In this document: positions 15,703-22,822 of the stretch, piece by piece | How positions within the stretch are numbered: position 1 is the first letter of the stretch | Layout: every line of letters starts with the position of its first letter | NCBI GenBank assembly: GCA_029245065.1 | Contig: JAQWQB010000031.1 | Span: 1-34,598 of the forward strand | DNA length: 34,598 bases | Reading direction: 5' to 3' | Source: Flavobacteriales bacterium | GTDB lineage: Bacteria; Bacteroidota; Bacteroidia; Flavobacteriales_D; Sanyastnellaceae | The notes under the pieces: generated by a model | Told to the model about the DNA's origin: nothing | The model's database searches: none | What the model saw: the letters and a program-made list of their open reading frames with translations, nothing else | Made by a program: the position numbers and the translations under genes

Positions 15703-16671
15703 ATGTCAGATTTTTCAGTTGTACGCAGTTCATCATGTCAAGAAGATTTTGACCGGCTGTCTGCTGCGCACGGCGGTGTTTTCTTCAATAAGGATGTGCT
15801 GCGATGTTCTGGAGAACGTGTTGAGCAGTTTGTTATTTGCGACGCGCAGGGAAAATGCATTGGTGGATTCAACCTACAAGTGATCAAACTAAAAGGAATT
15901 CCCGCTGTAACAGCGCCCAAATTTCATCCACACTGTGGATTGTTCGTCCTGCCATTTGAAGGAACCCTGTCTACTGTACAAGGCAAGATGAAGAAGGTCC
16001 TTTCGGTAGTCGCCGATTGCCTTGATGCGCGACCTGAGAAGATTGTATCAGTTCCTTTTCCGCCAGAGATTGAAGACATGCAGCCGTTTATTTGGTCTGG
16101 TTTTAAGACAAATGTCAAATATACCTACCAACTGAAAATCGATGAGCAGGCGTCGCCAATGGAGATGTTTAGTTCGAAGACGAGGAATTCAATTTCGAAA
16201 GGATTAAAATCGGGGTTGACATTTCAATTAAACCCGAAAGATGTTACTGAGGTCGTGGATTTATTGAATGCGAATGCGAAAGAGCAGGGCTTCAGCTATG
16301 AGCAAGAAGTAATGAGCAAGTTGGTAGATCAAGCGATGACGTCAAACGGAGGTGTTGGTGTAGCGATGCATGAAAACCGGATGGTAGCTTGCGCTGTTAC
16401 GCTGGCTGATGCAAAGCAAGCTTATTATTTTTTCGGGGGAGTAGATCGGAATTCATCGGTTCAAGGAGCGCTTGGTGTAGCACTCAACGAATTGATGAAC
16501 TTGTACCGAAAGAAAGGATTGGCTGTGTTTGACTTTGAAGGAAGCATGATCCCATCGGTTGAGAATTTCTTCAGAGGATTTGGAGGAAAACAAGTTCCAT
16601 ACTTCATGGTGACGAAAGCTCCATTTGTATTATCCACTCTGTTGAGAATGAAAGGGAAATCCGAGTTTTAA
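15703..16671 (+). CDS. FemAB/GNAT-like acyltransferase (acetyltransferase-6 type)
   Basis: 322 aa. The protein has the look of the double-GNAT FemAB-like fold. The first half has an A-x-K-F-H-P-H-C-G-L core, and the second half has the stretch S-K-T-R-N-S-I-S-K-G-L-K followed by N-A-N-A-K-E-Q-G. It then has a G-G-V-G-V-A-M-H-E-N-R-M-V-A-C-A-V acyl-CoA-site strand and F-F-G-G-V-D at about 245-252. Members transfer acyl or aminoacyl groups to peptidoglycan or to sugars of surface glycans. Last gene of the operon, 11 bp after the GT4 gene, so it may decorate the sugar being built. Its stop codon is interleaved with that of the convergent phosphatase gene. Substrate unknown. Confidence 0.7.
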   Translation: MSDFSVVRSSSCQEDFDRLSAAHGGVFFNKDVLRCSGERVEQFVICDAQGKCIGGFNLQVIKLKGIPAVTAPKFHPHCGLFVLPFEGTLSTVQGKMKKVLSVVADCLDARPEKIVSVPFPPEIEDMQPFIWSGFKTNVKYTYQLKIDEQASPMEMFSSKTRNSISKGLKSGLTFQLNPKDVTEVVDLLNANAKEQGFSYEQEVMSKLVDQAMTSNGGVGVAMHENRMVACAVTLADAKQAYYFFGGVDRNSSVQGALGVALNELMNLYRKKGLAVFDFEGSMIPSVENFFRGFGGKQVPYFMVTKAPFVLSTLLRMKGKSEF

Positions 16672-18443
16672 ACCCGAATCCCCATCACTAGAATATCGTC
16701 TATTTGTTCATTCGTGCCTTTCCAATCTTGAAGAGCACTTTTGATGGCCATTTCCTGTTCATACATCGTTAGGTCATGGTTGTCTAGTAACAACTGAGCG
16801 AAACGCTTGCGCATGAATTTCTTCTTTTTCGGTCCACCAAATTGATCAAAATATCCATCTGATGACATGTAAAAGGTGTCACCTGGTTTGAACGGAAGCG
16901 TTTGCTGTTTGAACTCTTTCTGAGCCATTTTGAACGTTCCGCCTAACGAATAACGATCGCCTCGAACTTGCTCCAATTCGCCATCACTAATTGTAAAAAG
17001 CGTTTGGAAGGCGCCCGCAAATTCGACGGTATTGGTGTCGTAGTTGAATTTACAAAGGGCAATATCCATCCCTGTAGAAATAAGCGTGTCAGAGTGGTGC
17101 TGTTTTAACTCGCGAATCACATATTCATCAATGGATTGGAGCACTTCAGCCGGACCATCAAGTTGGTGCTCGATGATGGCTTGATTGAGCATCTTAGAAG
17201 AAATCATACTCATCAATGCACCTGGAACACCGTGTCCCGTGCAATCAACACAAGCCACCCAACGCGTATTTTCATTCGAGTGGAACCAATAAAAATCACC
17301 ACTCACAATATCTTTCGGCCTCATGTAAACAAAGGCGTCTTCAAATGCATTGGCAATGCTGCTGTGCGAAGGCAACAAAAGTTGTTGAATACGCTTCGCC
17401 GCAATAATGCTATCTGTCATCTGAATGTAATTGTCCCGCATCACTTGGTTGATGCGTTCTCTTTCAGCCGCTTGCCCACGGAGCTTTTCGTTCAGAGTAG
17501 ACAACTCAAGCATACGCTGTGCAACGGTGTCTTCAAGTCTTTCAGCCACTTTCAAGGCTCTTTCTTCCGACCTTTTGATCTTGGTGTCGTCACTAAAACT
17601 TACGGTGAAGAATTGCGGTTTTGAAGGATCATAAACAGTCTTGATGCGTAGTTCTAGCCTTGAGCCTTTGAACGTTTTGGTTGAAAAGCAAAACTCAGAA
17701 CTGGTAACGCCGTGCGTAAATGATTCTAAACACTTGAGAACATGTCTATAAAATGATGCGGGGAAAAGCAAGTGAAAATCGGTAACGAGTTGCCCTCTAC
17801 TTCCAGCTTCGAATAGTTTCAGGGATTCTTCATTCACTGCAGTTGGAACAAAAGAATCTAACGCATTGCGCAATCTTGATATGCGCTCTTTGTTGCTGAT
17901 GTTTCGTTCCAGCAATTTGGTGAGATCTTCACCCGTAGACATTTCAAGAATGGCTACTCCAGCATGATCAAAGATGGATTTATAACGAAGTTCGCTGACG
18001 AATAATTCTCGTTCAACCTTTTTGCGTTGGTCTTCGCTTAATTTTCGTTGGATAGCTTTTTGGATAGCAATGTCAAGGCGAAGCATTGACGACTTAATAA
18101 TATAGTCGTCAATTCCTTCCTTGATACATTCTATAGCTGTTTCTTCAGTGAGTTCTCCGGTTACAATGATGAAGGGAACTTCAAGTCCCAATTTCTTCAC
18201 TGTAACGAACGCTTCCATTCCAGTATATTGAGGAAGAGAATAGTCGGATAAAACAACATCTGGGATGTTGACTTTGAAGTAATTTTCAAATTCCTCCTTG
18301 TCTGATACGTGGTCTACATTCCAATTGGGATGTGATCGTTTCAGTTGGGATTGAACCAGTTGCGCATCCAATGGGTAGTCTTCTAAGAGGAGTACCCTGA
18401 TGTCGTCTGGAGATGGGTTTGTTTCAGTTGTTAGCTTATTCAC
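16668..18443 (-). CDS. REC-PAS-like-coiled-coil-SpoIIE (PP2C) phosphatase
   Basis: 591 aa soluble signalling protein. Residues 15-135 are a receiver domain with the acidic pair E21-D22, acceptor D67 and K117. Residues about 150-290 look like a PAS sensor, and about 292-350 form a heptad-rich signalling helix. Residues 355-591 are a SpoIIE-type PP2C Ser/Thr phosphatase with metal-binding residues in S-G-D383, V-D400-C-T-G-H-G, M-S-S-D529-G and D582-D583. Phosphorylation of D67 likely switches phosphatase activity, as in RsbU/RssB-like regulators that act on STAS anti-anti-sigma proteins. No STAS or anti-sigma gene is in the window. The receiver closely resembles that of the kinase at 19965-21473, including the D-Y-S-L-P-Q-x-T-G-M-E-A stretch. 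Confidence 0.87.
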   Translation of the reverse strand: MNKLTTETNPSPDDIRVLLLEDYPLDAQLVQSQLKRSHPNWNVDHVSDKEEFENYFKVNIPDVVLSDYSLPQYTGMEAFVTVKKLGLEVPFIIVTGELTEETAIECIKEGIDDYIIKSSMLRLDIAIQKAIQRKLSEDQRKKVERELFVSELRYKSIFDHAGVAILEMSTGEDLTKLLERNISNKERISRLRNALDSFVPTAVNEESLKLFEAGSRGQLVTDFHLLFPASFYRHVLKCLESFTHGVTSSEFCFSTKTFKGSRLELRIKTVYDPSKPQFFTVSFSDDTKIKRSEERALKVAERLEDTVAQRMLELSTLNEKLRGQAAERERINQVMRDNYIQMTDSIIAAKRIQQLLLPSHSSIANAFEDAFVYMRPKDIVSGDFYWFHSNENTRWVACVDCTGHGVPGALMSMISSKMLNQAIIEHQLDGPAEVLQSIDEYVIRELKQHHSDTLISTGMDIALCKFNYDTNTVEFAGAFQTLFTISDGELEQVRGDRYSLGGTFKMAQKEFKQQTLPFKPGDTFYMSSDGYFDQFGGPKKKKFMRKRFAQLLLDNHDLTMYEQEMAIKSALQDWKGTNEQIDDILVMGIRV

Positions 18444-18547
18444 GATTGCTTAAAATTGCTATAGCTAAATTACTGCAAGGGTTTCATCGCCGTTGAACGA
18501 CACTGGACGACATGAGTGTAGTAATTCAACACCCATGCCTTAGGTGT

Positions 18548-18566
18548 ATTCCTACACGGTAGGAAT
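18548..18566. promoter_or_regulatory. Perfect inverted repeat overlapping the stop codon of the LuxR-type regulator
   Basis: ATTCCTAC-ACG-GTAGGAAT has perfect 8-bp arms. It spans the last codons and TAG of the regulator gene and lies 105-123 bp upstream of the phosphatase start. A third half-site GTAGGA occurs at 18578-18583, 19 bp from the second. There is no T-run, so it does not look like a terminator. It may be an operator for one of the neighbouring NarL/LuxR regulators. Confidence 0.4.
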
Positions 18567-19193
18567 TAGGTTATGAAGTAGGATGAATTTAATGATGTCT
18601 GAATTGTTATCCATATTCAGTTTCGTCAAAATTCTACTACGGTAGGTTGAAATAGTTTTAGCACTCAAACTCAATTGACTTGCAATTTGATTGTTTGCTT
18701 TTCCTTCCCCAATGGCCAAGAAGACTTCATACTCCCTATCTGAAAGCGTCAAGTGTGGTAACTCTTGGTTCTTGTTGTTCATTTCACGATACAACAACTT
18801 GGTGATTTGAGGGCTCAGATACTCGCCGCCATTTTGAATGGTGCGAATTGCTTCGATCAAAACCTCTGGAGCAGAATCCTTGTGCAAATAACCCGACGCA
18901 CCCGCTTTCAACATACGAATCGCAAATTGATCTTCTGGGTACATACTTAAAACAAGAACTTTGATATCTGGATAGAAAATCTTGACTTGTTTAAGTACTT
19001 CTAGTCCACTTCTTCCAGGAAGTGATACATCCAATACAATGATGTCTGGTTCCGTCTTACGAAGGCGTTGTAACAATTCTTCTCCACTAGCGATATCATC
19101 TGCAATGATATGAATGTCAGGGAAGTTAGCGATGATTTTACTTAACCCTTCTCTTACGATCTTGTGATCGTCACAAATAACGACGTTTATCAT
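18552..19193 (-). CDS. NarL/LuxR-family response regulator (copy A)
   Basis: 213 aa. The N-terminal receiver carries D8-D9, acceptor D55 in V-L-D-V-S-L-P-G-R-S-G, and K105 in L-H-K-D-S. The C-terminal half is a LuxR-type helix-turn-helix: L-T-L-S-D-R-E-Y-E-V, then I-A-S-Q-L-S-L-S-A-K-T-I-S-T-Y-R-S-R-I, the recognition helix. Phosphorylation should favour dimer binding to inverted-repeat DNA. It is probably a partner of the adjacent HisKA_3 kinase, the usual cognate class for NarL/LuxR regulators. A TAGATTTG box lies 29 bases upstream of its ATG. It is a close paralogue of copy B next door, identical over S-M-Y-P-E-D-Q-F-A-I-R-M-L-K-A-G-A-S-G-Y; the recognition helices differ slightly. Confidence 0.93.
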   Translation of the reverse strand: MINVVICDDHKIVREGLSKIIANFPDIHIIADDIASGEELLQRLRKTEPDIIVLDVSLPGRSGLEVLKQVKIFYPDIKVLVLSMYPEDQFAIRMLKAGASGYLHKDSAPEVLIEAIRTIQNGGEYLSPQITKLLYREMNNKNQELPHLTLSDREYEVFLAIGEGKANNQIASQLSLSAKTISTYRSRILTKLNMDNNSDIIKFILLHNLIPTV

Positions 19194-19222
19194 GTCTGAT
19201 AAGTTTTGGTTGATTTCTGAAC

Positions 19223-19230
19223 CAAATCTA
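19223..19230 (-). promoter_or_regulatory. Candidate -7 box for regulator copy A
   Basis: On the minus strand TAGATTTG, a full TAnnTTTG match, lies 29 bases upstream of the ATG at 19193. A gap of 101 bp separates copy A from copy B, so a separate promoter is plausible. The inverted repeat at 19276-19291 would be centred about 57 bp upstream of this box, a position typical for an activator site. Confidence 0.45.
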
Positions 19231-19275
19231 AGTTGACAATTTTCGTTTCGCTATAGGATGCAATCTTTAGAGGAA

Positions 19276-19291
19276 GTAGGACGAATCCTAC
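19276..19291. promoter_or_regulatory. Inverted repeat GTAGGA-CGAA-TCCTAC upstream of regulator copy A
   Basis: Perfect 6-bp arms with a 4-bp spacer, directly after the stop codon of copy B and 83-98 bp before the ATG of copy A. It shares the GTAGGA/TCCTAC half-site with the repeat at 18548-18566, although the arms are in the opposite order. Confidence 0.4.
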
Positions 19292-19294
19292 AAG

Positions 19295-19936
19295 CTATGT
19301 TGCTTGAGGAGCAAGGTCATGTAGCATGATGTATTTAACAAGGTCTGAATTGTTGTCTAGTTGCATTTTCTCAAGTATCCGAGTTCGGTAAGTCGAAATC
19401 GTTTTAACACTAAGAGAAAGCTGAACCGCTATTTCAGAAATAGTCTTCCCTTCACCTATATATAAGAGTACCTCGTATTCCCTGTCAGAAAGTGTCTTAT
19501 GGGGCAGTACCTTATTCTCATTGTTCATTTCCATGAACAGAAGTTGCGTAATCTTTGGGCTGAGGAATTCACTTCCTCTTGAAATGGTACGAAGTGCTAC
19601 TACGAGAAGATTGGGCTCAGAGTCTTTATGTAAGTATCCGGAAGCTCCAGCCTTCAGCATACGAATGGCAAATTGATCTTCAGGGTACATACTCAATACA
19701 AGAATTTTAATCTTAGGGTTAAGAAGTTTGATTTGTTTGAGCACTTCTAGCCCGCTTCTACCAGGGAGAGAAACGTCAAGGATAATTATTTGTGGCTTGA
19801 GTGTCTTAAGTTCAGAAAAAAGCGCTTCACCGCTTTCAACGTCAGATATTACTTCGAAGTCATTGAACGCATTGATGATTTGCTTCAATCCTTCACGAAC
19901 GATTTTATGGTCGTCACAGATGATAACTCTAGTCAT
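19295..19936 (-). CDS. NarL/LuxR-family response regulator (copy B)
   Basis: 213 aa, same plan as copy A. The receiver has D8-D9, acceptor D54 and K104. The LuxR helix-turn-helix has T-L-S-D-R-E-Y-E-V and the recognition helix S-V-K-T-I-S-T-Y-R-T-R-I. Roughly 60 per cent of residues match copy A by eye, most densely around the acceptor, the 80-105 stretch and the DNA-binding helices. The loops differ and copy B is one residue shorter near position 33. The start lies 28 bases after the stop of the hybrid kinase, so it is probably co-transcribed with it and is the best candidate for the kinase's direct partner. Confidence 0.93.
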   Translation of the reverse strand: MTRVIICDDHKIVREGLKQIINAFNDFEVISDVESGEALFSELKTLKPQIIILDVSLPGRSGLEVLKQIKLLNPKIKILVLSMYPEDQFAIRMLKAGASGYLHKDSEPNLLVVALRTISRGSEFLSPKITQLLFMEMNNENKVLPHKTLSDREYEVLLYIGEGKTISEIAVQLSLSVKTISTYRTRILEKMQLDNNSDLVKYIMLHDLAPQAT

Positions 19937-19964
19937 GTGGCACGAGTTGATAATTAGCTTTCAG

Positions 19965-21473
19965 TTACAATTCTTCAACAAGGAAAGAGAGAGAGATGGT
20001 CGTTCCTTGTTCGGGTGCGCCGTGCATTTCAAACACGCCATTCCATTTTTTTATGCGTTCCCGCATTCCAAATAGACCAAGACTTTTGGATTTCATTGCT
20101 TTTTCAATGTCAAATCCAACCCCGTTGTCTTTGATAATCAAATTAAGAAAGTTTCCCGACCTTTCAAAGTTTACCCAAGCTTCAGATGCTTGTGCATGCC
20201 TATTTATATTCGTTAAAGCTTCTTGAGTCATTCGATAAATGGCAGTGCTGAAATCTTTATCAAATTTCATGTCGCCAATGTCCGTTTTCAAGTGACAAAC
20301 TACTTCATGATTTTCGTTGTAGTTTTCGATGTGCCACTCCAATGCTGGTACGAGGCCAATGTCGTCAAGTACTACAGGGCGAAGTTCGTGCGCAATTCTA
20401 CGAACGGTCTTGATGGTTTGTGTGGTGAGATCAACCAAATAGTCGATTTTCTCCAGCACTCCTTCAAAGTTGATATCCGAAGCATCTTCTTTGGATAGTT
20501 CCTGTCGAATCCAAAACAAGCCCAATTTGTTTCCGGTCAACTCTTGTCCAAGTTGATCGTGTATTTCCATGGCTATTTTTTTCTTCTCCTCATCTCTGAT
20601 ATCTTCTAAGTACTGGGTGAGGTGATGAAGTTTTTCGTTGAGTTCTTTCAACGCTATTTCCGCCTTAACGCGCTCGGTGATCTGGGTAGGAATAAAAACC
20701 ACACAATCTACTTCACCATTTTTCAGTACTGGTGCAAGTTTGCAAAAGTACCATTTGGATTCAGGGTCTTTCGGGTTACCTTTGATGTCAAAGTCGAATG
20801 CTTCCCCCGTTTCATAACAGTTTTCAAGCGCTTTTGTGATGATTGATCCATTTTCTTCGTTCACAAGCGAAAGAATAGAGCTACCAATCAATTGCGCTCG
20901 TGGTAGACCGTCAATGTCTCTGTTCACATAAAGGATTTCTCCCTTCTTATCTAATTTGTAGATACTGTCTGGTGCATGTTCTGCAAGCGCTTTGAAATTG
21001 GCTTCACTTTCTTCTAGGTCTGCAATGGCCTTTGCTCTTTCAATTACATTTGTCTTGGCAGTAAGTGCGTTCGTTATAGCGCTTGGCAATCTGCGAAGGC
21101 TGTCTTTCAGTACGTAGTCATCTGCTCCAGCCTTAATGCATGCCACGGCCGTTTCTTCATTGAGCGATCCCGTGCAAATGATAAAGGGGATGAATTCGCT
21201 AGAAGCACGAACGAAATTCAACGCTTCCATTCCGGTGAATTGTGGCAATGAATAATCGCTGATTACAAAGTGAGGCTTGAAGTCAACAAATGCTTTCTTG
21301 AATGATTCACCATCGCTAACATGTTGAACATCCAATTCCAATTCAGTCTTTCGCAACTGCAGTTTAATAAGCTCTGCGTCAGACGGGAAATCTTCAAGTA
21401 AAAGCAACCGAACCGGGCTATGGGGCTCGTTGATGTGGAAATAGTCGCTAGCGTAATCAATGGGAGAGGTCAT
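19965..21473 (-). CDS. REC-PAS-HisKA_3 histidine kinase, soluble
   Basis: 502 aa with no membrane segment. Residues 21-140 are a receiver: E27-D28, acceptor D73 in I-S-D-Y-S-L-P, and K123. Residues about 158-270 are a PAS domain (A-L-A-E-H-A-P-D-S-I-Y-K-L-D-K-K-G). A short coiled coil follows, then a HisKA_3 dimerisation domain with phospho-acceptor H305 in M-E-I-H-D-Q-L-G-Q. The C-terminus is an ATPase domain with N-box T-N-I-N-R-H-A, D-N-G-V-G-F-D and L-G-L-F-G-M-R-E-R. With the receiver at the N-terminus, phosphoryl input from another kinase may control this kinase, and its own H305 should feed the LuxR-type regulators downstream. It lies 14 bp after the stand-alone receiver gene. Confidence 0.92.
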   Translation of the reverse strand: MTSPIDYASDYFHINEPHSPVRLLLLEDFPSDAELIKLQLRKTELELDVQHVSDGESFKKAFVDFKPHFVISDYSLPQFTGMEALNFVRASSEFIPFIICTGSLNEETAVACIKAGADDYVLKDSLRRLPSAITNALTAKTNVIERAKAIADLEESEANFKALAEHAPDSIYKLDKKGEILYVNRDIDGLPRAQLIGSSILSLVNEENGSIITKALENCYETGEAFDFDIKGNPKDPESKWYFCKLAPVLKNGEVDCVVFIPTQITERVKAEIALKELNEKLHHLTQYLEDIRDEEKKKIAMEIHDQLGQELTGNKLGLFWIRQELSKEDASDINFEGVLEKIDYLVDLTTQTIKTVRRIAHELRPVVLDDIGLVPALEWHIENYNENHEVVCHLKTDIGDMKFDKDFSTAIYRMTQEALTNINRHAQASEAWVNFERSGNFLNLIIKDNGVGFDIEKAMKSKSLGLFGMRERIKKWNGVFEMHGAPEQGTTISLSFLVEEL

Positions 21474-21487
21474 ACTGCGGAAGTTTC

Positions 21488-21925
21488 TTAGTTCAAGGTT
21501 TTATTGATAGTGGTCCAGTACCGCACGGCTTCGGTGATGGCATTCGCGTGCATGCTGTATTCAATAGGCTTAACAATGTAGCTGTTCGCACCAAATTCGT
21601 AGGCCGTAGCGATGTCGCTTTCTACAGCCGAACTTGTTAGAATAACAATTGGAACGGTTCTCCATTTATCATGGGAGCGAAAAGACTTCAATACTTCAAA
21701 CCCGTTCACTTTCGGCATTTTCAAGTCGAGCAGAATGAGTTTCAACGAAGTTGAAAGCTGTTGCTGTGAAATTTCACTAGATGGGTCGAGAATCTCCAAC
21801 GCTTTGGCGCCGTCATTCAGAATTAAGATATTCAAATCCAATCCACCCTTTTTGAGCGCAAGCGTAGTCAGTTCCGCGTCATTGGCGTTATCTTCAATGA
21901 GCAGAACATCTATTTTTTTTTCCAT
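21488..21925 (-). CDS. Stand-alone response regulator (Rcp1-like receiver)
   Basis: 145 aa, a single receiver domain with no output. The acidic pocket E11-D12, acceptor D67 in L-L-D-L-K-M-P and K119-P120 are all present. The insertion after the first helices (D-P-S-S-E-I-S-Q-Q-Q) and the long C-terminal helix A-I-T-E-A-V-R-Y-W resemble Rcp1-type regulators, which pair with phytochrome-like or hybrid kinases and act as phosphate shuttles. It is the first gene of the receiver cluster and sits 14 bp ahead of the hybrid kinase. It could pass phosphate to the kinase pathway or drain it. No promoter box of the usual type was found; the terminator at 21968-21993 separates it from the gene upstream. 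Confidence 0.9.
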   Translation of the reverse strand: MEKKIDVLLIEDNANDAELTTLALKKGGLDLNILILNDGAKALEILDPSSEISQQQLSTSLKLILLDLKMPKVNGFEVLKSFRSHDKWRTVPIVILTSSAVESDIATAYEFGANSYIVKPIEYSMHANAITEAVRYWTTINKTLN

Positions 21926-21967: not shown

Positions 21968-21993
21968 AAAAAAGGGGCGTGAACCCCTTTTTT
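21968..21993 (-). terminator. Rho-independent terminator of the TPR-like gene
   Basis: Stem 21968-21977 / 21984-21993 (GGGG with CCCC extended by six A/T pairs) and a 6-nt loop. On the minus strand it ends in seven T, 18 bases past the stop at 22012. Confidence 0.85.
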
Positions 21994-22011: not shown

Positions 22012-22737
22012 CTATCCTACAATCATTCTGTAAGTAACGTTGAATTCTTTGTCTTCACCAAACATTGGTGCTCCCAATTCGAGCCATTCCTTGGCTTTGT
22101 CACGATCACCTGTTTCATCAAGTGTTTCTGCAGTAATGATGATTGACCGCTTAAGCAGTTCCTTTTGTTCATCTTGAAGCGAATCAAAATCACGTTCGCC
22201 TAAAATTCTTCGTGCTTCTTCCCAAGAAAGACTAGCGTCTTTTTTAGAGCGCATCATGTGCTCGCTGTACCCTTTCATCATCCACGCTCCAGGGTCTTCG
22301 CTATCAATATTGGTCATATACTTGTACATACCTTTCGCTCGTGTGTACTTCTCATTTCCAATTTCCAACTCTGCAGATTCCATGATGGCAGCGCGTACTT
22401 CGCTCATGTACTCGGTGAACTCGGCTACGAATTCATCTTTCTTGTCTTTTTTACGGTGCTTCACCAAGTACTTAATAGAGTTCTTAAACGCCTTTGGGTA
22501 TTTGGTTTTTACCGTTTCATTGTCTCCTTGAGAAATTCGAAAGTAGGCCATGCTCGCATAAATGTATGGAAGCGGCTCTTTCGATGTTTTCTCACTTTCA
22601 ATGTATCTCATCGACTTCTGGAGACAACGTTCGTATTTTTCATCCACGATTAATTCAAGCAAATCATGGTAATCTCCTTGAGCTTGTGTGAATAGGGATG
22701 CCCCTAGAATTAATGCAAATAGTAGTGTCTTCTTCAT
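22012..22737 (-). CDS. Secreted TPR-like hypothetical protein
   Basis: 241 aa from ATG 22737; 69 bases of open frame upstream have no signal and are left out. The start M-K-K-T-L-L-F-A-L-I-L-G-A-S-L-F-T-Q-A-Q is a clean Sec signal peptide. The rest is helical, with pairs such as L-I-V-D-E-K-Y-E-R-C-L-Q-K-S and L-E-I-G-N-E-K-Y-T-R-A-K-G-M-Y that look like divergent tetratricopeptide helices, and a D-P-G-A-W-M-M-K-G-Y segment typical of a TPR. No catalytic motif is seen. I do not recognise the family; it is probably a periplasmic or envelope scaffold. It has its own terminator, and its 5' end faces the divergent helicase gene. Confidence 0.75.
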   Translation of the reverse strand: MKKTLLFALILGASLFTQAQGDYHDLLELIVDEKYERCLQKSMRYIESEKTSKEPLPYIYASMAYFRISQGDNETVKTKYPKAFKNSIKYLVKHRKKDKKDEFVAEFTEYMSEVRAAIMESAELEIGNEKYTRAKGMYKYMTNIDSEDPGAWMMKGYSEHMMRSKKDASLSWEEARRILGERDFDSLQDEQKELLKRSIIITAETLDETGDRDKAKEWLELGAPMFGEDKEFNVTYRMIVG

Positions 22738-22822
22738 ATCAGTGTTATAGAATATCATCGAGTGATATACAAACTTGATGCCTAAAATACTTTGAATCTG
22801 TGGCAACTCAAAAATCCTAGGT

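Follow-up and report, generated by a model that had tools for sequence, protein, structure and literature searches.

The window analysed here is a stretch of 34,598 nucleotides from a Flavobacteriales bacterium of the family Sanyastnellaceae (assembly GCA_029245065.1, contig JAQWQB010000031.1, positions 1 to 34,598). It carries a compact minus-strand cluster of five genes for receiver-domain (REC) proteins, which a sequence-only reading of the same DNA had listed in the order stand-alone receiver, histidine kinase, two NarL-type regulators and SpoIIE phosphatase. All five were recovered as open reading frames in that order and at the same positions, with gaps of 14, 28, 101 and 108 bases in the direction of transcription, and all the domains named in that reading gave Pfam matches above cut-off, except for a PAS domain in the phosphatase. 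The first gene (21488-21925) encodes REC1, a stand-alone receiver of 145 amino acids (aa; PF00072) of the Rcp1 (phytochrome response regulator) type, whose PDB matches include 1i3c/1jlk (Rcp1) and 1k66/1k68 (RcpB/RcpA). No phytochrome kinase was detected beside it by Pfam, the sole kinase of the locus being the product of the second gene (19965-21473), a Rec-controlled REC-PAS_4-HisKA_3-HATPase protein of 502 aa. The receiver of this kinase has LvrB as its best PDB match (8vc9, 9.3e-31), and PAS_4 sits between receiver and HisKA_3, so that the direct-linker Rec-DHp-CA architecture is not present. The next two genes encode NarL/GacA-type regulators of 213 aa with a REC-GerE architecture, NarLa (the upstream copy, 19295-19936) and NarLb (18552-19193). 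For both, the best NCBIfam match is the GacA/UvrY model NF007018 (171.3 bits for NarLb and 159 bits for NarLa), below its equivalog cut-off of 280 bits. The last gene (16668-18443; 591 aa, GTG start) encodes a SiaA-like phosphatase with a receiver, a middle region, a helical linker and a SpoIIE domain; its end overlaps that of a convergent gene (15703-16671) by four bases (16668-16671).

Alignments bore out that the acceptor Asp and Lys, together with the acidic pocket, are intact in all five receivers. In a receiver tree, the kinase and phosphatase receivers form one group with one other REC-kinase receiver (support 0.73). No transmembrane-like segment was found in any of the five proteins by 19-residue hydropathy analysis (maximum 1.35, compared with 2.39 and 3.32 for two membrane controls), and the statement that no membrane sensor is encoded holds for this locus. 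The PAS domain assigned to the phosphatase received no support: Pfam gave no match above cut-off, no PAS model matched the middle region (approximately residues 141-300) of the window protein at E 0.1, PAS_9 and PAS each matched one of 11 phosphatase homologues weakly (E 0.019 and 0.053), and the hhalign comparison of the middle region with the kinase PAS profile reached a probability of only 6. The helical linker is inferred from the sequence and from homologous linkers, which have been proposed to relay receiver signals to such phosphatases (PMC12143880).

An intrinsic-terminator-like hairpin (21968-21993, minus strand) lies between REC1 and a TPR-like gene (approximately 22012-22746). Folding was carried out on the window sequence, for which 2 of 200 shuffles were equally stable, and the hairpin is visible by eye in 10 of 10 aligned genomes; it is likely to mark the upstream edge of the transcription unit of the cluster. 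The TPR-like gene adjoins the cluster in cluster-bearing genomes and was considered as a sixth member. It was rejected because it occurs in 105 of 114 family genomes irrespective of the cluster and because the hairpin intervenes.

The five genes are present or absent as one block

We searched 60 relatives with the kinase, examined the fetched neighbourhoods, and searched 114 genomes of the family with the phosphatase and NarLb. The full five-gene order was found in 11 of the 114 genomes, belonging to six genera (the window genome and G004, G024, G011, G031, G081, G014, G015, G033, G025 and G005; NarLa is broken in G031). Conserved synteny, which the sequence-only reading had suggested as a check and whose absence it had named as refuting, is therefore present in 10 further genomes, and the arrangement is more than chance. 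It should be noted that the flanking genes are colinear as well, so that synteny alone proves little; for this reason, cluster-free relatives were inspected. All 14 of them have the TPR-like gene and 13 are readable on both flanks (the contig of G018, L219, ends right after the TPR-like gene and shows one flank only), and none of the five cluster genes is present at the site in any of the 14. One of them (G019, L214) has a receiver with a 30% match to REC1 about 5 kb away from the site. Thus, in evolutionary terms the five genes act as a single unit, which is either there or missing en bloc at one site. In a tree of four flanking proteins (FastTree, 41 genomes, of which 39 were from the family and two from another family, f5; G117, G119, G120 and G122 of genus g10 and all but 14 cluster-free genomes were left out), the cluster appears in early branches, with basal supports of only 0.66-0.8. 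If the block was ancestral and never regained, this would suggest at least three block losses: in a clade of eight sampled genomes, in a clade of five beside g10, and in G017, next to its congener G034.

Several genomes keep only part of the cluster. G034 retains the kinase and both NarL genes, and genus g10 a shortened kinase, one NarL gene and the phosphatase; in G009 of this genus the shorter kinase form has no PAS match. Among the g10 kinases, the full set of receiver residues is found in 13 of 14 readable sequences (that of G123, the fifteenth, is broken and unreadable), and a further one, from G029, has no receiver. In none of the 15 g10 phosphatases are the receiver residues intact: all 15 have lost the Lys or show a gap in its column, and one (G120) has an Asp at the acceptor position, although it aligns poorly. 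The receiver of these phosphatases has decayed to a pseudo-receiver (L053, L193-L202, L204-L207), while 14 of 15 retain all five acidic residues of the PP2C domain (L197 is truncated). The degenerate phosphatase receiver of G009 had led us to expect that the two N-terminal receivers decayed together, an idea rejected in view of the intact kinase receivers. Two f5 genomes have the kinase and one NarL gene, with REC1 also present in G040, and both of these clusters are headed by a soluble PAS-PAS-HisKA kinase. With 399 genomes of the order sampled, kinase-profile matches passing E 1e-70 were confined to 13 family members and the two f5 genomes; across 395 sampled genomes of the class, its best matches outside the family reached at most 285.3 bits, compared with 852-879 bits for three family members. 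The best 80 matches listed from a scan of contigs of other organisms were all distant relatives, with best-segment identities of at most 48%.

We also compared 16 stretches among the 11 full-cluster genomes (10 for tonB and nine for oxr). NarLb showed the highest conservation (88% mean identity) and the middle region of the phosphatase was the fastest-evolving stretch (31%). Mean identity was 76% for NarLa, 53-65% for REC1 and for the principal kinase and phosphatase domains, 50% for the kinase PAS and 37-76% for seven flanking proteins. According to a tree of 40 NarL sequences (G111 and G029 left out), the duplication that produced NarLa and NarLb predates the branching of the cluster-bearing genera, and the single NarL of g10 clusters with NarLa (support 0.64 for the joint clade). 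Within the DNA-binding domain, the stretch L-S-x-K-T-I-S-T-Y, which we take to be the recognition helix, is unchanged in 23 NarLa, NarLb and f5 sequences, with L176, S177 and K179 to Y184 invariant; this alignment excludes the broken NarLa of G031, as well as G081 and g10. In G031, NarLa is interrupted (L043:8923-9612) and the adjacent NarLb is intact.

narLb, a trans-encoded operon and rec125 share one promoter architecture

The gap before narLb contains a conserved near-palindromic operator, TGTAGG-N6-CCTACT (19275-19292, minus strand), followed on the same strand by a second half-site, TCCTAT, 34 bp downstream of the operator start (19253-19258), and a -7-like element, TAGATTTG, 62 bp downstream of it (19223-19230). 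In 12 of 12 genomes TANNTTTG is found in this gap, and 61-63 bp upstream of it lies the near-palindrome TGTAGG-N6-CCTACA, with 0-2 mismatches in 11 genomes and three in G034; the second half-site likewise belongs to this promoter in 12 of 12. The box is placed where an activator would be expected. The fuller form of the operator, TGTAGGA-N4-TCCTACA, resembles the GacA box: the N6 spacing is common to the operator and the UvrY/GacA box published as TGTAAGN6CTTACA (PMC3171408), and the site before rec121 in G014 matches this published box exactly. For the gap that separates narLb from the phosphatase gene, a putative RNA structure reached z -2.4 in the window and was discarded, the alignment showing no conserved feature.

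A scan of all fetched loci located the operator also before an operon encoded in trans, comprising rec121 and two kinase genes, in the window genome and two others. The rec121 box was found in eight of eight readable genomes with 1-2 mismatches, and the -7 element lies at 61-62 bp in six of them and is imperfect in two (two further genomes are cut by contig ends, L241 and L242, and G034, L246, has no REC121). Among the fetched loci, L323, a different SiaC locus, was not counted, and the 200-base placeholders L250 and L329 were not used. With the -7 element allowed anywhere within 57-67 bp, a scan of 0.78 Mb of the own genome added three sites, each at exactly 62 bp (2, 2 and 3 mismatches), and a fourth at 65 bp (3 mismatches). 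On contigs C90, C17 and C7, respectively, the three 62-bp sites precede REC125, a lipoprotein-like gene and a REC-sigma54/FIST/hybrid-kinase operon.

We then scored operator, second half-site and -7 element as a composite. Five sites scoring at least 20 and seven scoring 18 were obtained in 1.17 Mb of the own genome; six Markov-2 shuffles (7.03 Mb) gave none of at least 20, three at 19 and 18 at 18. No composite score of at least 19 was observed in 18 cluster-free loci (250 kb), 18 g10 loci (110 kb), two f5 loci or 80 loci of other organisms (1.23 Mb). Upstream regions reaching 19 were those of narLb in 12 of 12, rec121 in eight of eight readable and rec125 in nine of 10 cluster-positive genomes; in the tenth, G033, the rec125 box can be seen by eye with two mismatches and an imperfect -7 element. 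It should be noted that the pattern was derived from the narLb sites, so that the narLb counts are descriptive and the test lies in the other loci and in the spacing. On this basis, narLb, the trans operon and rec125 share one promoter architecture. NarLb would be the likeliest protein to bind the box, because no scoring box turned up in the g10 loci, which lack NarLb. Neither REC125 nor its neighbour HMGL was seen next to SiaC in four cluster-free genomes that we inspected.

Two copies of this promoter come from the window genome, a strong one before the lipoprotein-like gene, which has no Pfam match (L269:2187-3297; score 22), and one before the operon for a REC-sigma54 regulator, a FIST-domain protein and a PAS hybrid kinase (L260:7765-12594; score 20). 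In genus g16, a copy of the operator before REC1 lies at the end of the TPR-like gene (L045:6603-6620, L046:11503-11520).

The trans-encoded kinase operon

The trans operon encodes REC121, a HisKA kinase of 240 aa and a REC-HisKA kinase of 725 aa (Pfam). A bacteriophytochrome had been suspected as the trans kinase from a size of about 740 aa and from the Rcp1-like REC1, and was rejected because Pfam gives REC, HisKA and HATPase only. We searched 37 family genomes with a profile of the extra f5 kinase, accepting matches down to E 1e-40. A HisKA kinase (open frame 721-780 aa) was found at 244-267 bits in 11 of 11 genomes with a full or near-full cluster, and no match of this strength was present in the 26 other family genomes, including G009 and G029 of g10 (Fisher 1e-9, uncorrected for relatedness). 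Weaker HisKA matches, of 178-204 bits, were seen in three of these 26 genomes, in gene sets made up of HisKA kinase, Rcp1-like receiver and REC-kinase. The 11 trans-kinase loci have common neighbouring genes where readable. Within genus g18, G034 has the trans kinase and three cluster genes and G017 has neither. Nor is the trans kinase present in large genomes without the cluster, for example G007 (3.9 Mb) and G030 (3.2 Mb), which indicates that genome reduction alone is not the reason.

The trans kinase is thus our best candidate for the upstream kinase of the cluster, as judged from co-occurrence and the promoter. The sequence-only reading had placed the trigger in the cytosol or in another kinase acting on the N-terminal receivers; a co-occurring soluble HisKA kinase with the same promoter type argues for this, and the PAS-PAS-HisKA kinase heading the cluster in the two f5 genomes points in the same direction. 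A set of HisKA kinase, Rcp1-like receiver and REC-kinase side by side recurs in other genomes (L247, L248, L249, L253) and looks like an ancestral form of REC1 and the REC-kinase.

The phosphatase, the proposed circuit and its rivals

The catalytic part of the cluster phosphatase matches the NCBIfam SiaA model (NF038263) at 7.5e-64 and 216.4 bits, below the equivalog cut-off of 700 bits and confined to the C-terminal half; its PDB match is 6k4e_A (5.2e-40), which we take to be SiaA. The PP2C acidic residues D383, D400, D529, D582 and D583 are invariant in 11 aligned phosphatases, and the protein ends with SpoIIE, with no HATPase match in Pfam. Five other SpoIIE matches are present in the genome, four of which were typed, and three of these match SiaA, including a weak match (7.7e-13) of a C67 gene cut by the contig end. 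The C76 phosphatase is the sole one of five typed without a SiaA match at E 1e-8. There are three SiaC genes in the genome, none of them beside the cluster phosphatase: the one on C90 is accompanied by a SiaB-like gene, the one on C135 by a DUF6272 protein and a SpoIIE gene, and the one on C67 by a SpoIIE gene. In the neighbourhoods examined (no genome-wide SiaB search was made), two DUF6272 (SiaB-like) proteins were found, each beside a SiaC gene. In Pseudomonas aeruginosa, SiaA and SiaB are reported to set the phosphorylation of SiaC (PMC7647112, PMC8457831). SiaC occurs in 101 of 114 family genomes, which makes the SiaC switch core and the cluster phosphatase what would be an added, receiver-controlled input. 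The STAS/anti-sigma partner switch envisaged in the sequence-only reading is not supported. The genome has two STAS genes above cut-off, whose neighbours look by eye like housekeeping genes and neither of which is linked to the phosphatase, and no STAS match was obtained on the contig of the window; a stand-alone HATPase_c_2 protein is also encoded.

We consider it somewhat better than an even chance that the cluster is the core of a soluble, self-reinforcing two-component network of several kinases distributed over three loci. HisKA kinases of the trans operon would phosphorylate three receivers, namely REC1 and the LvrB-like ones at the N-termini of the HisKA_3 kinase and the phosphatase. 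Receiver phosphorylation would switch the HisKA_3 kinase, as in LvrB, and the kinase would then phosphorylate its NarL partners; HisKA_3 kinases serve NarL regulators. LvrA has been described as phosphorylating LvrB (PMC5863495), and Rec phosphorylation as activating it (PMC13269768). Phosphorylated NarLb, alone or with NarLa, would bind TGTAGGA-N4-TCCTACA and activate its own gene and the other two loci, creating a positive loop. As a second, post-translational output, the phosphatase would dephosphorylate a SiaC protein against SiaB. A single kinase feeding everything, as first supposed, is probably too simple, because the kinase receiver is mostly intact in g10 and the phosphatase receiver is decayed. 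More tentatively, we propose an extended form in which the hyper-conserved NarLb would control its own gene, the operon encoding its feeding kinases and one additional receiver. Eight receivers and three kinases, spread over three loci, would then make up a closed loop whose second output is a SiaA-like phosphatase gated by its receiver, and the whole may act as a GacA-like global switch of this Bacteroidota lineage that is gained or lost whole.

Several observations weigh against the proposed network. The co-occurrence counts are not phylogenetically independent, and independent contrasts are few. Outside the family, G045 reaches 249.8 bits without having the cluster, so that bit score alone is no proof of orthology. 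The kinase operon of G034 lacks both REC121 and the box, and REC1 itself carries the box only in g16 (two of 11 genomes). G061 has REC125 with the box (score 20) and no NarLb was found in it, perhaps because its assembly is 80% complete and in about 630 contigs. In the receiver tree, the kinase receiver of g10 does not join the group formed by the remaining kinase and phosphatase receivers. Moreover, the trans kinase was not found in G009, which has an intact receiver, or in G029, whose kinase has none, and thus this receiver can be served otherwise. Finally, SiaC, being nearly universal in the family, is not specific to the cluster phosphatase.

Among the alternatives, we find it doubtful that the N-terminal receivers are charged by small phosphodonors or unrelated kinases and that the trans operon is a parallel system sharing only transcriptional control. 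Acetyl phosphate has been proposed as a possible input of LvrB (PMC5863495), and the intact kinase receiver of G009 without a trans kinase match would fit such a view; however, trans kinase and cluster are absent together, also within g18, and the f5 clusters have a HisKA kinase in place. It is unlikely that we are dealing with an ordinary HisKA_3-NarL pair with accessory receivers, the rest being ancient neighbours and the trans loci standing independently under another GacA-like regulator. Such a pair would leave unexplained that the block is absent while the flanks remain, that the loci have a fixed-spacing promoter in common, that the trans kinase co-occurs and that no box of at least 19 exists in the loci of g10, where the one NarL present clusters with NarLa. 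In its favour, no other part is retained as widely as the kinase-NarL core (f5 genomes, G034, g10), the flanking genes are colinear too and NarLb binding to the box is a prediction. Least probable is a scheme in which a single HisKA_3 kinase charges every receiver and the phosphatase acts on a STAS/anti-sigma switch, since the shared cluster, the two STAS matches and the HATPase_c_2 protein are set against a SiaA-like phosphatase (216 bits), STAS genes amid housekeeping-like genes, receivers of two classes with a separate kinase, and the C76 phosphatase as the better candidate for a STAS-type enzyme.

The proposed network turns five domain architectures into a circuit with named partners, namely a trans-encoded upstream kinase, an operator, three or more promoters and a possible substrate of the phosphatase, and the combination of block loss and a shared fixed-spacing promoter offers a way to wire orphan receivers and kinases from sequence. 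If true, it would place a regulon of the GacA-box type outside proteobacteria, link a Rec-controlled kinase to a SiaA-like switch, and provide a clean setting in which to ask why a transcription factor shows far higher conservation than the kinase driving it. Word searches of the open-licence literature returned no paper on this gene arrangement or its three-locus control, and every part of the circuit belongs to a known kind. The alphaproteobacterial stress network of MrrA and PhyR likewise has a stand-alone receiver as a hub before a partner switch (PMC5964349), whereas its output proteins are unrelated and there is no evidence here for a sigma factor. HsbR/CrsR and RssB also have a receiver before a PP2C-type domain, in RssB via a helical linker (PMC6482189, PMC12143880); in contrast to HsbR, the window phosphatase lacks a C-terminal kinase/anti-sigma domain and combines a SiaA-like catalytic domain with an additional middle region. 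The LvrA-LvrB-LvrC system of Leptospira is similarly soluble, with an N-terminal receiver on a histidine kinase that is the closest PDB receiver sequence and is phosphorylated by an upstream kinase, a step only proposed for the cluster. Unlike LvrB, the window kinase is of the HisKA_3 type and carries a PAS domain that separates its receiver from the kinase part; its presumed partners are NarL regulators instead of a REC-anti-sigma protein, and its proposed upstream kinase is encoded in trans. GacA/UvrY is the best NCBIfam match of both NarL proteins and has the same N6 operator spacing, with one site identical to the published box; the NarL scores, however, fall below the curated cut-off, two tandem paralogues occur here, and the predicted targets are mostly signalling genes, whereas the published GacA/UvrY box precedes csrB small RNAs. 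With SiaA/SiaB/SiaC(/SiaD) of P. aeruginosa the cluster has in common a SiaA-like phosphatase domain, with SiaB- and SiaC-type genes elsewhere in the genome, but the window phosphatase differs from SiaA in its N-terminal receiver, its lack of a membrane segment and its location away from SiaB and SiaC. One SiaB-like protein of 391 aa with two DUF6272 matches (L056:5192-6367), which adjoins a SiaC gene and a TPR-SpoIIE gene, is possibly a fused double SiaB kinase.

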